A DNA stretch of 21,039 nucleotides from a virus. The notes below the pieces were generated by a model. That model made no database searches and was not told where the DNA came from. It saw only the letters and a list, made by a program, of their open reading frames with translations. The stretch lies in IMG/VR virus record IMGVR_UViG_3300030389_002233, positions 1-21,039 of that record; one strand, written 5' to 3'. A program made the position numbers and the translations under genes. Numbering within the stretch: the stretch's first letter is position 1; each line of letters begins with the position of its first letter. Positions 1 through 19,937 of this stretch are shown here, one piece after another.

Positions 1-218
1 ATGCCGCATGTCCAGCCCACGAAAGGACGCCACCCAGCGACAAAGATGCTGCGGTGCTGTGCTTCAGCCTTGTTGATTTCAAGCTGGCCCTTCGCCAACT
101 CCTGGGCGTGGTTCTGGGCCATCGTGGCGACCTCATGCGCCAGCCGCGCCTTTTGGTCTTTGTCCTCAATGAATTTGTCCAGCAGGCCAGTCACCGGCCC
201 AATAAGCGCCTGAATCAT
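1..218 (-). CDS. Holin_3TM-type holin, partial (3' end beyond left edge)
   Basis: Reading leftwards from the ATG at 218, the first 72 codons run open to the window edge. The visible protein starts MIQALIGPVTGLLDKFIEDK, continues through a charged helical stretch with QLEINKAEAQHRS, and reaches FVAGWRPFVGWTCG at the edge. The pattern of an N-terminal amphipathic helix followed by EINKxEAxHRSxFVAGWRPFxGW is the recognisable signature of the Holin_3TM family, first described for release of gene transfer agents in alphaproteobacteria. Its later transmembrane helices would lie off the window. The ATG overlaps the stop of the EF-hand membrane protein gene as ATGA, so translation is probably coupled. 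Expected role: permeabilising the inner membrane at lysis. The family call is strong; the lysis role is inferred from the family and from the neighbouring membrane proteins. Confidence 0.87.
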   Translation of the reverse strand, partial: MIQALIGPVTGLLDKFIEDKDQKARLAHEVATMAQNHAQELAKGQLEINKAEAQHRSIFVAGWRPFVGWTCG

Positions 219-535
219 TTTTTATCTCCCATTTGCGTGAAGCCCATGTAGGCACCCACCACCCCGCTCAGTGAGATGTACAGCAATGGGCTAATCTCAC
301 TTAGTAGCTTGATGCGGCTGTCGGGTATGAACGGCATGAAGAGCAGGATCGTGTAGACGCCCATGCCGATGAGCGCGTAACGTGCCAGCCGGAGCTGCGC
401 CAAATGCTTGCGGCTCTTGTCTTCCGTCTCTCGGATTTCGCGCGCGCGCTCTATCTCTGCGTCAGTGACCACGCCATCATCATCAAGATCGTAGCGCTCG
501 AACTCGCTAGACCTTTCCAGTTTTTTCTGTGTCAC
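215..535 (-). CDS. EF-hand two-pass membrane protein, possible calcium-responsive holin-like protein
   Basis: A 106-residue protein. Residues 16-27 (DLDDDGVVTDAE) form a textbook EF-hand loop: Asp at loop positions 1, 3 and 5, Gly at 6, a hydrophobic residue at 8 and Glu at 12. A basic/acidic helix follows, then two hydrophobic segments at about residues 52-70 and 80-98, and a short charged tail. Small EF-hand plus two-helix proteins of this kind occur in marine phages, usually without assigned function. The start is GTG at 535, overlapping the upstream stop as GTGA, with a Shine-Dalgarno-like AAGGAA about nine bases upstream; no ATG is available nearby. Its place directly before a holin gene suggests a lysis role, possibly calcium-tuned membrane disruption. 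The calcium loop is seen in the sequence; its function is inference. An alternative is an unrelated membrane modulator. Confidence 0.8.
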   Translation of the reverse strand: MTQKKLERSSEFERYDLDDDGVVTDAEIERAREIRETEDKSRKHLAQLRLARYALIGMGVYTILLFMPFIPDSRIKLLSEISPLLYISLSGVVGAYMGFTQMGDKK

Positions 536-1236
536 TGGAGCGCTTCCTTGATGGCGTCGAGCGTTTCTCGCAGCGTCAGCGGCTTCTTCTTGTTGGGATT
601 ATATTTGCATTGATACTCTGACGGCGTGTATTCGCCTGGCATGAAGGTCATGCTTTCCTGCGTGTTGTTCGCGCCTAGATACAAACAAACCTTTTGGTCA
701 AAGACATATTCGCAGGCGGCTTTGCGGCAGGTCACATATTCTGGTTCAGCTTGCGCAGTGTGCGATTTGAGCAGCATGGCAAACCCGATCAGGACAGCCA
801 GGCAAGCACCGATAGTTATTGTCCATGCAATGTACTCGATGATTTTCTGCCGGCGCTGTTGAGCGGCATAGATCGCTTCCTGGCGTTGCTTCCTAATCTT
901 GCCCTCCAGGGCTATAAGCTCGTTCCACGCTGCCACGCCCCTGGTCAGTTGGATCATTTGTTTGAGTTGATACCGTTGATCCTGAAGCTGCTTTTTCGCC
1001 GTGAAGGCTTCCAGGGCAAGGCTCTCAATGCTCTTGCCCTTGGTGAGCTTTAGAAACAGGCTCGGGTTCTTGGCGCTCTTTTCCAGGTGATCGACATCCG
1101 AGACAGCCGACATCCACCGCGAAAGGTCTTGCGTCATCTGCTCCAGCTCACGACCAGCAGCAAAACCTTTTTGCAGCACTTTGAAAGCGCTAGACGCCAC
1201 CGACACGGCCGCGCCGATGGTGGCCGGATCAAGCAT
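532..1236 (-). CDS. Single-pass membrane protein with long N-terminal helical domain and Cys-containing C-terminal domain
   Basis: A 234-residue protein beginning MLDPATIGAAVSVASSAFKV. Residues 1-130 are helical, charged and probably coiled coil (SRWMSAVSDVDHLEKSAKNP, then KIRKQRQEAIYAAQQRRQ). One transmembrane segment lies at about residues 136-156. The C-terminal part of about 75 residues has Cys at 170, 175, 184 and 210. The basic stretch before the membrane segment predicts a cytoplasmic N-terminus and a periplasmic, possibly disulfide-bonded C-terminus. I recognise the general type as a conserved hypothetical protein of marine phages but know no established function. Setting within a run of four membrane proteins suggests lysis or envelope modification; an inner-membrane spanin subunit is one possibility, but no outer-membrane lipoprotein partner is visible. 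The stop is shared as GTGA with the next gene. Confidence 0.72.
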   Translation of the reverse strand: MLDPATIGAAVSVASSAFKVLQKGFAAGRELEQMTQDLSRWMSAVSDVDHLEKSAKNPSLFLKLTKGKSIESLALEAFTAKKQLQDQRYQLKQMIQLTRGVAAWNELIALEGKIRKQRQEAIYAAQQRRQKIIEYIAWTITIGACLAVLIGFAMLLKSHTAQAEPEYVTCRKAACEYVFDQKVCLYLGANNTQESMTFMPGEYTPSEYQCKYNPNKKKPLTLRETLDAIKEALQ

Positions 1237-1245
1237 TGCGTTACC

Positions 1246-1416
1246 TTATTTTGAGAGCAACACGCCGATGAGGAGGACGATGGTAGTGCCAGCAGAGCCC
1301 ACCATAATTGTCTCAAGTCGCTTGACGCGGCTGAGAAGCTCGACAAAGCGCTCCTGGCTTAAAACTGAAAGCGTGTCCAGCTCGGCCTTGACGGATGTTA
1401 CTGTTGGTTTGCTCAT
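1246..1416 (-). CDS. Small XhlA-like coiled-coil and C-terminal membrane anchor protein (56 aa)
   Basis: A 56-codon reading frame from ATG at 1416 to TAA at 1246, fitting exactly between the second tail paralogue (TGA, one base, ATG) and the 234-residue membrane protein (nine bases downstream). The translation starts MSKPTVTSVKAELDTLSVLS, continues with an amphipathic helix (QERFVELLSRVKRLE), and ends with one hydrophobic segment of about 20 residues followed by LLSK. A short heptad-like helix followed by one C-terminal transmembrane segment is the architecture of haemolysin XhlA and similar phage lysis accessory proteins. The gap-filling position, co-directional start and clean topology argue that it is real. 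The XhlA comparison rests on architecture rather than clear sequence identity. Probable location: inner membrane, N-terminus cytoplasmic. Confidence 0.7.
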   Translation of the reverse strand: MSKPTVTSVKAELDTLSVLSQERFVELLSRVKRLETIMVGSAGTTIVLLIGVLLSK

Positions 1417-1417
1417 C

Positions 1418-2227
1418 TCAGTTCTCTATGAACAGCCCAACATTGTCGTCTTTGTCATCACCTGTATCACTAGCAAACACCCCAAGATTATAAGCAAAAA
1501 CAAATTTGTGCGCTGTGTTTGTTGCAAGACTCACAGTGAATTTCAGATAAATAAATTCATTGATAGCCAAACCAGTTGCCTCTGTACCTAAGTAATTTGT
1601 GCTGCTGACTTGTGCGATAATTTCTTCACCAGCATTAGGCAATGGATTGGATGTGCTTTGGAAAGTTGTTGCAATTGAATCTGCTGCACCTGTTTCATTG
1701 CTAGAGGTTGAGCTTCTTGAACGCCAATTGACACTACCAGTTCCCAGCGGATTGAAAGCGGTGCTAAATGTTCCCACTCCTCCCGCAGCAGGCAATGGAT
1801 CAACAGTTGGATCATTGCTAGGGGTATGATCGGGGGTCGTTGTAAATATACTTGTGTCTTCAGCGCCACCAGCGAAAACCACTGCGCTGGCTGTGTGAAT
1901 TTGTATTGCCCCAACACACAGATCATTATGAAAGGTACTGGTGTTATTTTGGCCTTTTACTGCGAGATAAAAAGTATGAGAAGCATTACTGCCAGAAGTG
2001 AATAGAATATCTTTCACCGAATAATTTTCGGTATTATCGTTGACCCCAAACATGGATAAATAATGTATGTTTGGGATCATAAACAGGGTGTTCAAACTAG
2101 ACATAGTATGCACATGATCACTATCAGATGTGCCAGACCGACTTACGCCAGCACCACCACCTCCACCACCGCCTGTAGCAGCAATTATTTTGCGAGGTGA
2201 TTTTAATTTTCCAACAGATAGCAACAT
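1418..2227 (-). CDS. Polyglycine tail/adhesin-like protein, paralogue 2
   Basis: A 269-residue protein. It has a short N-terminal segment (MLLSVGKLKSPRKIIAATG), then a glycine run (seven Gly, Ala, Gly at residues 19-27), then SRSGTSDSDHVHTMSSLNT and a Ser/Thr/Asn-rich beta-type body. It is clearly paralogous to the gene immediately upstream: shared blocks lie at about residues 28-54, 68-91, 101-119, 179-200 and 233-269, the last ending DTGDDKDDNVGLFIEN. The core at about 120-178 is divergent. The start ATG overlaps the upstream paralogue's stop as TAATG. Location just after the tail fibre suggests a virion surface protein, possibly a receptor-binding tip; I do not recognise a named family. 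The gene is visibly AT-richer than the head and ejection genes. The paralogy is certain; the role is inferred. Confidence 0.72.
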   Translation of the reverse strand: MLLSVGKLKSPRKIIAATGGGGGGGAGVSRSGTSDSDHVHTMSSLNTLFMIPNIHYLSMFGVNDNTENYSVKDILFTSGSNASHTFYLAVKGQNNTSTFHNDLCVGAIQIHTASAVVFAGGAEDTSIFTTTPDHTPSNDPTVDPLPAAGGVGTFSTAFNPLGTGSVNWRSRSSTSSNETGAADSIATTFQSTSNPLPNAGEEIIAQVSSTNYLGTEATGLAINEFIYLKFTVSLATNTAHKFVFAYNLGVFASDTGDDKDDNVGLFIEN

Positions 2228-3042
2228 TAGTTTTCTATGTACAATCCGACATTGTCGTCTTTGTCATCGCCAGTATCAGTTGACCTCACTCCAAAATTGT
2301 AAGCAAAAACAAACTTATGGGCTGCATTTGTTGCAAGGTCTGCAACAATCTTGAGGTATAGAAAATCATTCAACGACATAGGAGAACTAGTTTCAGTAAA
2401 TAAAAAATCTGTATCAGTGACTTGCGGAATAATTCCATCACCAGCCTCTGGCAATGGATTTGCAGTATTTTGAAAATCTGTAGATATAGAATCAGCAGCC
2501 CCGGTACGAGAGCTTGCAGTGCTACTTGCTATTTTCCATGTAGAAGCGCCAGTTGCTTGAGCTAAAGTTGTGTAAGTCTGTGAAGTTGGATCAGTAGAAG
2601 CAGTCTGTTCACTTGTACTAATGGCCGTGCCGTCAACCGTTGTAGTACTTGACCCAATTGCAAATAGTACCGCACTGCTTGAATGAATCTGTATTGCGCC
2701 AACACACAGATCATTATTAAAACTTGAAGGGTTAGGTTTTGCTTTTACAAAAAGATAGAACGTATGTGTAGCGTTACTACCAGATGTAAAATTAATATCT
2801 TTTACTGAATAATTTTCTAAATTGTCGTTAAAACCTGGCGATGTGCTAGAGGCTGGGTGATTTATATAAACTATATTTGGAATCATAAACAAAGTGTTCA
2901 AACTAGACATAGTATGAACATGGTTGCTGTCAGATGTTCCAGAGCGACTTATGCCACCGCCACCGCCACCACCGCCGCCAGCAGCAGCAATTACACGCCG
3001 TCGAGCGCTTAATATGCCTACGTTTCCAGGTCCTGCAAGCAT
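2227..3042 (-). CDS. Polyglycine tail/adhesin-like protein, paralogue 1
   Basis: A 271-residue protein starting MLAGPGNVGILSARRRVIAA, followed by nine consecutive glycines at residues 22-30 and then ISRSGTSDSNHVHTMSSLNT. The glycines use mixed GGC/GGT codons, so the run is held at protein level and is not a simple DNA slippage tract. The body is Ser/Thr/Asn-rich and ends DTGDDKDDNVGLYIEN. The ATG at 3042 was chosen because it overlaps the upstream TGA as TGATG, like other junctions here, and gives the same ML start as its paralogue; a TTG three bases earlier is less likely. Conserved flanks bracket a divergent core at about residues 129-179. By position it is probably a tail-tip or receptor-interacting protein. 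No catalytic motif is seen. Confidence 0.72.
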   Translation of the reverse strand: MLAGPGNVGILSARRRVIAAAGGGGGGGGGISRSGTSDSNHVHTMSSLNTLFMIPNIVYINHPASSTSPGFNDNLENYSVKDINFTSGSNATHTFYLFVKAKPNPSSFNNDLCVGAIQIHSSSAVLFAIGSSTTTVDGTAISTSEQTASTDPTSQTYTTLAQATGASTWKIASSTASSRTGAADSISTDFQNTANPLPEAGDGIIPQVTDTDFLFTETSSPMSLNDFLYLKIVADLATNAAHKFVFAYNFGVRSTDTGDDKDDNVGLYIEN

Positions 3043-3356
3043 CAAGACATCTCTGTCACAAAGACTGTGCCAGCTTCAGAGCTTTGAATAGCGGCGCATT
3101 TTTCACCAGCGGTTACTTTGAAATACTCCACTTGATTGGCTGGCATGAAGGGCAGTGAGGTTGTGGCTGTCGGCGCAGCCGCAAAGGTGATGTGACAATC
3201 TTTAGTTGCCACAATGCGAACCACTGTTGTGCCAGTTGCGAACGCATTGCTTGTGGCTGCGCTCGAGCCACTGGTCGTAATCGTTTGCGTTGTTCCAGGT
3301 GCAAGCGCCTGAATCGGGTGAAAGTTATCGCTGTCTATAGCAAGTGCGGTTGCCAT
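3042..3356 (-). CDS. Small beta-rich virion-associated protein, function unknown
   Basis: A 104-residue protein rich in Thr, Ala and Val, with phrases such as IQALAPGTTQTITTSGSSAA, VVRIVATKDCHITFAAAP and LPFMPANQVEYFKVTAGEKC. The alternating hydrophobic/polar pattern suggests a small beta-sandwich. I recognise this as a type of short protein seen among structural genes of marine phages, but not with a proven role. A good Shine-Dalgarno (AGGAG) lies about six bases before the ATG and overlaps the TAG stop of the tail-fibre gene. The stop overlaps the next gene's start as TGATG. Position between the tail fibre and the polyglycine paralogues makes a tail or decoration component plausible. No membrane segment or signal peptide is visible. 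Confidence 0.6.
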   Translation of the reverse strand: MATALAIDSDNFHPIQALAPGTTQTITTSGSSAATSNAFATGTTVVRIVATKDCHITFAAAPTATTSLPFMPANQVEYFKVTAGEKCAAIQSSEAGTVFVTEMS

Positions 3357-19083: not shown

Positions 19084-19692
19084 TTAGCTCCCTAGCAGCT
19101 GTTTCTTTTCTGTCGGTGCATCGCCCAGGACGCCGCGTGAGCTTGTCAGGATGCTCCTGGTACGTCTGCCCCGCATGTAGGGGCTTGCCCTACCCCTGGT
19201 AACGGCAGCCGTCTCTCTGGCGCTTCTGACAACAGATGCGGGTCTGATTGGGTCTGCCGCCGGCGCAGCCTGGCCGGAGGAGCCTGGCGCACCACTAACG
19301 GGAGATGAGGCCGGTGGGTTTGCCGGCGGCAGAGATGGTGCAGCAGCTGGCGAGGCCGTGCTGGGCTGTTCATCACTTCTTAGATCTGGGCCACCAGGCT
19401 CGCCCGGTTTTGGTGCGTTTGGATCATAGCCAGGCCGGCCTGAATAGACCCTGGCGCCCATTTTGTTCAGATTTATAACGCCGACCACCTGGCCGCGCTC
19501 GTCCCTGACTGCTTCACCGCCGAGCTCCAGGCCTCGTATGATATTGCGGCGGTTCATGTCGCCCAGGCCGCCCATGAGGCCGCCCAACAATCCAGGCAAG
19601 CGATTTGCCTCAGCTGTGCGCTGTCTGGACTGGACCTGGGCGATGGCTGCGCGGTTATCGCGGCCGCTGTCTTCTGCTACCGGGCCGCCCAT
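19084..19692 (-). CDS. Hypothetical protein with disordered Pro/Ala/Ser linker and TSxRGVLxDAP C-terminal motif
   Basis: A 202-residue protein of unknown function. Residues 1-60 are helical and Gly-rich (RLPGLLGGLMGGLGDMNRRN). Residues 60-85 contain a short possible strand pair (GQVVGVINLNKMGARVYSG). Residues 90-155 are a low-complexity Pro/Ala/Ser/Gly linker, likely disordered. The C-terminus is basic and ends with RSILTSSRGVLGDAP (179-193) then KKQLLGS. The same motif ends the preceding small protein, so the two proteins may bind the same partner. The TGATG overlap upstream and single-base spacing to the portal gene place it in the packaging-head operon. Similar short motif proteins occur beside terminase/portal genes in other phages, without known role. 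Confidence 0.7.
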   Translation of the reverse strand: MGGPVAEDSGRDNRAAIAQVQSRQRTAEANRLPGLLGGLMGGLGDMNRRNIIRGLELGGEAVRDERGQVVGVINLNKMGARVYSGRPGYDPNAPKPGEPGGPDLRSDEQPSTASPAAAPSLPPANPPASSPVSGAPGSSGQAAPAADPIRPASVVRSARETAAVTRGRASPYMRGRRTRSILTSSRGVLGDAPTEKKQLLGS

Positions 19693-19937
19693 CAGCTGGT
19701 CTCCTTGTTTTTCGCCTTGCCCATCAGGCTGGCATATTCCAGGGGTGCATCCTCAAGAACGCCGCGCGCACTGGTCTTGATGGTCTTACGCCGGCTCACA
19801 GTCTTCGGATCCCTTGCCTTGCGCTTTACAGCCTCGCTCGGATCACTCGGGCGCACGACGGGCGCAGGAACCACAGGCGGTGGAGGCGGCGGAGGCGGCG
19901 CCGGAGGCACCGCAACCTTTGGTCTTAAAATGCTCAT
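19692..19937 (-). CDS. Small proline-rich protein with TSxRGVLxDAP motif
   Basis: An 81-residue protein: MSILRPKVAV, then a polyproline stretch with eight consecutive prolines (residues 14-21), then a basic helix (EAVKRKARDPKTVSRR) and KTIKTSARGVLEDAP (51-65). The arrangement of a short N-terminal anchor, polyproline spacer and basic I-x-T-S-x-R-G-V motif recurs in small phage proteins near terminase and portal genes; no function is established to my knowledge. The ATG overlaps the terminase stop as ATGA and the stop overlaps the next gene as TGATG. A run of eight prolines should slow ribosomes unless EF-P acts. Its position hints at a packaging accessory or minor head role, which is inference. 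Confidence 0.72.
   Translation of the reverse strand: MSILRPKVAVPPAPPPPPPPPVVPAPVVRPSDPSEAVKRKARDPKTVSRRKTIKTSARGVLEDAPLEYASLMGKAKNKETS

Follow-up and report, generated by a model that had tools for sequence, protein, structure and literature searches.

EF-hand hairpin membrane proteins in phage lysis cassettes: a conserved family of putative calcium-responsive holins or holin partners

Class II holins, such as S21 of phage 21, are small membrane hairpins of two transmembrane (TM) segments with a predicted N-in/C-in topology, encoded in a lysis cassette upstream of the endolysin. We know of no class II holin that carries an EF-hand. The EF-hand superfamily (calmodulin-type proteins) is built on a canonical 12-residue loop, in which Glu at position 12 is the Ca2+-type choice; EF-hands usually, though not always, work in pairs, and lone single EF-hands are usually weak Ca2+ binders. 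Holins of the GTA_holin_3TM family (PF11351) and of PHROG 3427, 9646 and 2524 have three TM segments, with a helical part at the N-terminus. In the F1 mycobacteriophages, which infect Gram-positive hosts, the cassette encodes LysF1a/LysF1b, a 2-TM N-in/C-in protein and a single-TM protein (PMC13056207). For Methylophilales phage Melnitz, with no holin to hand, the lysis passages of its description propose the curli pore CsgGF as an analogue of a pinholin (PMC9004378).

We analyzed a viral record of 21,039 nucleotides (the window), which carries tailed-phage portal, capsid and terminase genes and encodes a small protein that combines an EF-hand loop with a predicted 2-TM hairpin. This protein and its relatives share the cassette position with class II holins and are, like them, predicted to be small N-in/C-in hairpins; no sequence similarity to S21 was found, and the N-terminal EF-hand is a feature of the aquatic-phage protein. 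The endolysins inspected beside EF-hand genes have no SAR or signal segment, a further point of difference from phage 21. The 3TM holins, which adjoin the EF-hand gene in most loci of the window’s clade, have a similar arrangement of the Lys-rich tail and the two TM helices before it, with an N-terminal helical part where the family has its EF-hand. LysF1a/LysF1b can be compared with the EF-hand protein and its neighbor, protein P; the mycobacteriophage pair has no EF-hand, its single-TM protein differs from P in topology, and no homology has been shown. The loop itself is of the calmodulin type, and comparison of a family profile with the PDB gave calmodulins as matches (E 2.8e-10, a score summed over several hands); the phage proteins differ in having one EF-hand loop per chain, with an exit helix that runs on into a membrane helix. 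Melnitz itself carries a member of the family, MelnitzEXVC044M_108, which goes unmentioned in the lysis passages of the Melnitz paper (PMC9004378); CsgGF, the earlier proposal for lysis control in that phage, is an outer-membrane pore. We read the family as putative Ca2+-binding lysis proteins, with a predicted cytosolic EF-hand and a TM hairpin, that in many phages most likely (probability about 0.5) either are the holin or make up half of a two-component holin.

Table 1. Features of the EF-hand gene and its neighbors in the window.
Feature	Position	Strand	Evidence and remarks
Holin of the GTA_holin_3TM family, truncated at the window edge	1..218	minus	PF11351, E 1.2e-14; phrog_3427 holin, E 7e-22
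ATGA overlap of the holin gene’s start and the EF-hand gene’s stop	215..218	minus	Sequence; TGA at 217..215, ATG at 218..216
EF-hand hairpin membrane protein	215..535	minus	106 aa, GTG start; family conservation and AlphaFold2
Second TM segment, about residues 81-99	239..295	minus	Hydropathy and charge; helix 72-105 in AlphaFold2, then a short Lys-rich tail
First TM segment, about residues 49-71	323..391	minus	Hydropathy, charge, AlphaFold2; continuous with the EF-hand exit helix
EF-hand loop DLDDDGVVTDAE, residues 16-27	455..490	minus	Ligand pattern, conservation, background counts, family profile
GTGA overlap of the upstream gene’s stop and the EF-hand gene’s start	532..535	minus	Sequence; GTG at 535..533
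Protein P, 234 aa: helical at the N-terminus, with a single TM segment (138-156) and an additional C-terminal part	532..1236	minus	phrog_32327, E 2.4e-5
Small protein (56 aa) with a TM segment at its C-terminal end	1246..1416	minus	Place and layout as for the 75-aa protein of Limnohabitans phage DC31

A first-pass annotation, made from the sequence, had described an EF-hand loop, two TM segments behind it and a translationally coupled Holin_3TM gene, and each of these stands. All ligand positions of DLDDDGVVTDAE are satisfied (D1, D3, D5, G6, V8, T9 and E12 occupy the canonical places), two hydrophobic segments follow, of which the second is the weaker by Kyte-Doolittle hydropathy, and the downstream gene encodes a holin that matches both PF11351 (GTA_holin_3TM) and the PHROG holin family 3427; the EF-hand gene shares 4 nt with each of its two neighbors. 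Taken alone, the window sequence matches the Pfam EF-hand with E 0.03, which falls short of the cut-off, so its relatives had to decide on the EF-hand; other members, searched one at a time, likewise stayed under the Pfam thresholds. The profile of PHROG 27150, a family of unknown function, matches the window protein at E 7e-6 and the protein of Roseobacter phage CRP-9 at E 5e-11, with weaker or no matches to other members.

The family comprises hundreds of EF-hand membrane proteins in viral contigs together with those of named phages. When viral contigs were scanned with the window protein, the best 80 close relatives were kept, as in every scan that yielded loci. Searches with tblastn found members in Roseobacter phages CRP-1, CRP-9 and CRP-345 and, from these, in CRP-207, CRP-810, Melnitz, Pelagibacter phage HTVC008M and DC31; it is these named phages that identify the hosts as aquatic. 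Single linkage at 50% gave four clades, one of which we call freshwater after DC31. Many of the loci are close kin, and counts of loci are thus not counts of independent events; the clades and an alignment of 81 members carry the weight. A single genome scan for cellular copies returned just one contig, from a Pelagibacter MAG, and on that one scan a cellular origin of the family was rejected.

Conservation of the loop ligands in relatives was the check that the first-pass annotation had named, and the family passes it. Members were recognized by a model built only from the TM half and then scored for the loop, which was present in all 271 scorable distinct members among the matches listed (best 80 per scan). 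Asp1, Gly6 and Glu12 were each found in 271 of 271; D or N occurs at position 3, D, N or S at position 5, V, I or L at position 8, and T, S, D or E at position 9 apart from one Gly, while positions 2, 4, 7, 10 and 11 vary. Three members fall outside this set, two of them cut at contig ends and one (L283) unscored yet showing the loop DVDGDGVVTDDE. A scan with patterns taken only from the TM half recovered 68 members among the matches listed, all 68 with the loop, and the conservation is therefore no artefact of loop-based searching. In an alignment of 11 members, whose identity to the window protein ranges from 25 to 87%, Met1, loop positions 1, 6 and 12, Glu38 and Gln47 do not vary. The 81-member alignment leaves loop positions 1, 6 and 12 and Gln47 invariant; these rank as the most conserved columns of all, and loop position 2 ranks 96th. 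Within the window’s clade, both synonymous codons are used near-equally for the fixed Asp1 and Glu12. The weak single-sequence Pfam score is what could be said for a chance run of acidic residues, an explanation to which we assign next to no probability: it is ruled out by retention of the loop in every scorable member and by the background, since the other ORFs of these loci, 1.45 million residues in all, contain the loop pattern just once. Shuffling the window protein produced the pattern in 4 of 300,000 sequences. Taken together, these results are what a functional metal site would leave behind, and Ca2+ binding is predicted for it.

AlphaFold2 modeled the protein with a mean pLDDT of 79 from 81 sequences (73 from 39 sequences). 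The model has a short helix (11-15), the loop, a continuous helix (25-65) and a further helix (72-105), giving a helix-loop-helix around the loop at pLDDT 70-80 in which the entering helix is short. Since the helix at 25-65 joins the EF-hand exit helix to the first TM segment, the loop is modeled as mechanically continuous with the membrane hairpin. Fold comparison of the model with the PDB and with viral models gave no match at E ≤ 0.001, as expected for a helical hairpin. Some members of the DC31 clade (L265, L290) have long, proline-rich C-terminal tails past the second TM segment.

The linkage to lysis genes proposed in the first-pass annotation is borne out by the family’s neighbors, which were assigned by a simple script and include Rz spanins, GTA-type holins and M15, GH24, GH108 or GH19-like enzymes. 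In three clades, all scorable loci among those listed (82/82, 80/80 and 2/2) have an endolysin gene no more than three genes downstream, as for genes of class II holins; for the fourth clade the figures are 66 of 144 scorable loci outside the tape-measure setting and 0 of 24 within it (clade counts include one duplicate locus, L338). The order in the window’s clade is EF-hand gene, 3TM-type holin, then GH24 lysozyme or M15 peptidase, with the holin directly downstream in 89 of the 90 loci listed (GTA_holin_3TM in 27, phrog_9646 in 60). In the freshwater clade the order is P, EF-hand gene, Rz-like spanin and M15 endolysin, and a 3TM holin occurs in only 2 of the 81 loci listed. CRP-1 and CRP-9 have the EF-hand gene, an M15 endolysin and a protein with a lipobox and a C-terminal TM segment in the layout of a u-spanin. 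The largest clade is mixed: loci with P, EF-hand gene, a phrog_2524 protein and endolysin stand beside CRP-207-like loci with other neighbors and loci in the tape-measure setting. In that setting, seen in 81-83 of the loci listed, the EF-hand gene is flanked by a baseplate gene and the tape-measure gene in Pelagibacter and Methylophilales myoviruses (e.g., HTVC008M and Melnitz) and their relatives.

Protein P recurs with the EF-hand protein. Its relatives were found in at least 152 loci, 141 of them adjoining an EF-hand gene, usually upstream and sometimes downstream, and P is likely a functional partner of the EF-hand protein. The window and DC31 have a gene order in common: a small C-terminally anchored protein, P, the EF-hand protein and then the lysis genes.

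The first-pass annotation had spoken of a membrane protein beside a holin. A 3TM holin does adjoin the gene in the window, and the wording is probably too modest, as many relatives have no other recognizable holin; this absence makes the EF-hand protein itself a holin candidate. The CRP-1 cassette is one such case. Its M15 endolysin has neither a signal nor a TM segment, so that a hole is required, and the EF-hand protein, gp56, is the sole small annotated CDS with two clear TM segments, the lipobox protein aside; one other candidate, an unannotated two-TM ORF of 54 aa (658-822), was seen outside other genes. No other holin was recognizable in CRP-1 or CRP-9. DC31 has a few further small two-TM genes outside the cassette, HTVC008M has one other small annotated two-TM CDS and no annotated holin, and GTA_holin_3TM occurs elsewhere in the genome in only one (CRP-810) of the eight named phages. 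By elimination, the EF-hand protein is a good holin candidate in CRP-1, DC31, HTVC008M and Melnitz. It had no holin match above cut-off in Pfam, PHROG or NCBIfam, and differs from the GTA_holin_3TM and PHROG holins in lacking a profile match and in having two TM segments rather than three. For descent from a known holin family the signal is weak: hhalign gave 30% probability to phrog_2524 (reversed control, 1%) and, in local mode, less than 1% to the other 3TM holin families (PF11351, PHROG 3427 and 9646).

The window’s clade also has its recognizable 3TM holin, and the EF-hand protein there may be an accessory, partner or regulator. Extended to the family, this becomes a doubtful but serious alternative, in which the protein is a Ca2+-dependent regulator (antiholin or co-holin) and the hole is made by the neighboring 3TM holin or by an unrecognized one. 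The near-constant 3TM-type neighbor of the window’s clade fits such a role, as does the finding that close EF-hand relatives lie beside either of two holin-like and either of two endolysin families, as a general regulator would; LysF1a/LysF1b moreover give a precedent for a holin system of two proteins, one of them 2-TM and N-in/C-in (PMC13056207). Against a purely regulatory role, CRP-1, CRP-9 and nearly all of the freshwater clade keep the EF-hand gene although they have no other recognizable holin. A more distant proposal takes its cue from HTVC008M, Melnitz and similar contigs, in which the gene directly precedes the tape-measure gene: the protein would belong to tail assembly or DNA ejection and insert into the host membrane, its place in lysis cassettes being incidental to late-gene order. 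The CRP-207 and Melnitz copies are 63% identical over 81 residues, which points to one protein type in both gene settings, and in three of the four clades every scorable locus adjoins endolysin, spanin or holin genes while the structural modules are unrelated; we therefore regard a tail or ejection role as improbable. The tape-measure context is nevertheless the main fact that the lysis reading leaves unexplained.

The side of the membrane on which the loop lies bears on any sensing role. Topology was called from Kyte-Doolittle hydropathy and charge, and across 275 sequences the mean number of Lys and Arg is 2.8 in the 12 residues before the first TM segment, 0.8 between the segments and 2.6 after the second, with at least as many in the tail as in the inter-TM loop in 275 of 275. 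By the positive-inside rule both ends, and with them the EF-hand, are predicted to be cytosolic, so that hydropathy and charge agree in predicting two TM segments with the N-in/C-in topology of class II holins. The low-calcium, cytoplasmic site that the first-pass annotation gave the loop is supported to the extent of these charge statistics. In an N-out/C-out protein, an EF-hand outside the inner membrane and always Ca2+-loaded would sense nothing and would only stabilize the protein or bind an envelope partner; constant millimolar Ca2+ would call for no tuning of the loop, and bacteria commonly have EF-hand proteins in the periplasm or outside the cell. A periplasmic example appears in passages of PMC13171946. 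With the charges pointing inward in every sequence, and with no signal sequence ahead of the loop, we consider this arrangement unlikely.

A Ca2+-responsive holin or holin partner is thus our best reading, at about even odds, from the conserved loop, the pattern of a TM hairpin and the gene context, with Ca2+ binding, pore formation and triggering all putative. Free Ca2+ in the bacterial cytosol is sub-µM, compared with about 10 mM in sea water and about 0.1-2 mM in fresh water, so a cytosolic EF-hand would be empty until a leak occurs and filled within moments thereafter. The EF-hand protein would accumulate Ca2+-free while cytosolic Ca2+ is low; at the first membrane leak, outside Ca2+ would fill the loops, the filled EF-hands of neighboring proteins might pair, and the attached TM hairpins would shift to an open or aggregated state. 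The lesion would then spread at once and the endolysin escape. This takes up the hypothesis of the first-pass annotation that the loop could sense the first lesions and trigger cooperative opening. Such Ca2+-driven positive feedback in lesion growth would be the most economical model, its main rival being an antiholin relieved by Ca2+. The specific form, a Ca2+-gated holin in which influx through an EF-hand fused to a pore-forming hairpin triggers or synchronizes lysis as a positive-feedback clock, is put forward only tentatively. More broadly, the family suggests that calcium helps set the moment of host-cell bursting.

EF-hands and 2-TM holins are each well known; a conserved lysis-cassette family that fuses the two appears to be undescribed. 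A literature search on EF-hands with holin, pelagiphage, roseophage or lysis returned no such protein, although subscription journals lay mostly outside its scope and may hold a description, and in the family libraries the fusion is absent but for the unnamed PHROG 27150. What triggers holins on time is a long-standing question, and the Ca2+ ligands, as the least variable residues of this holin-like family, offer a concrete switch, one that single residue changes should break. For marine phages without an annotated holin (SAR11 and OM43 myoviruses, RCA roseophages), the family provides a candidate lysis gene and, if the calcium reading is true, would tie phage burst timing to the environmental calcium of sea and lake water.

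Several smaller observations concern the same loci. The EF-hand proteins of two close relatives (L001, L002) are 96% and 98% identical to that of the window, and their downstream holin families differ (GTA_holin_3TM or phrog_9646); the window’s clade likewise carries either of two endolysin families, a pattern of modular swapping at the gene boundary. In the T4-like marine myoviruses, the copies of HTVC008M (L094, 2959-3291) and Melnitz (L093, 2959-3288) lie between baseplate assembly and tape-measure genes. Proteins with an N-terminal lipobox and a C-terminal TM segment, the unimolecular-spanin layout, are encoded beside the endolysin at L081 2365-2739, L082 4296-4661 and L083 4710-5051. The extra part after the TM segment of protein P contains Cys in the window copy. 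Small C-terminally TM-anchored proteins hold the same cassette position in the window (1246-1416, minus strand) and in DC31 (L096, 2227-2454); the window protein has no Pfam or PHROG match and is XhlA-like in layout only. Beyond it on the minus strand, 1418-2227 and 2227-3045 encode adjacent related proteins (269 and 272 aa) that contain poly-Gly tracts and share a C-terminal DTGDDKDDNVGL[FY]IEN motif; they probably arose by duplication of a virion protein. An 81-aa protein with a proline run near its start is encoded at 19692-19937 (minus strand), where it separates the terminase and portal genes.
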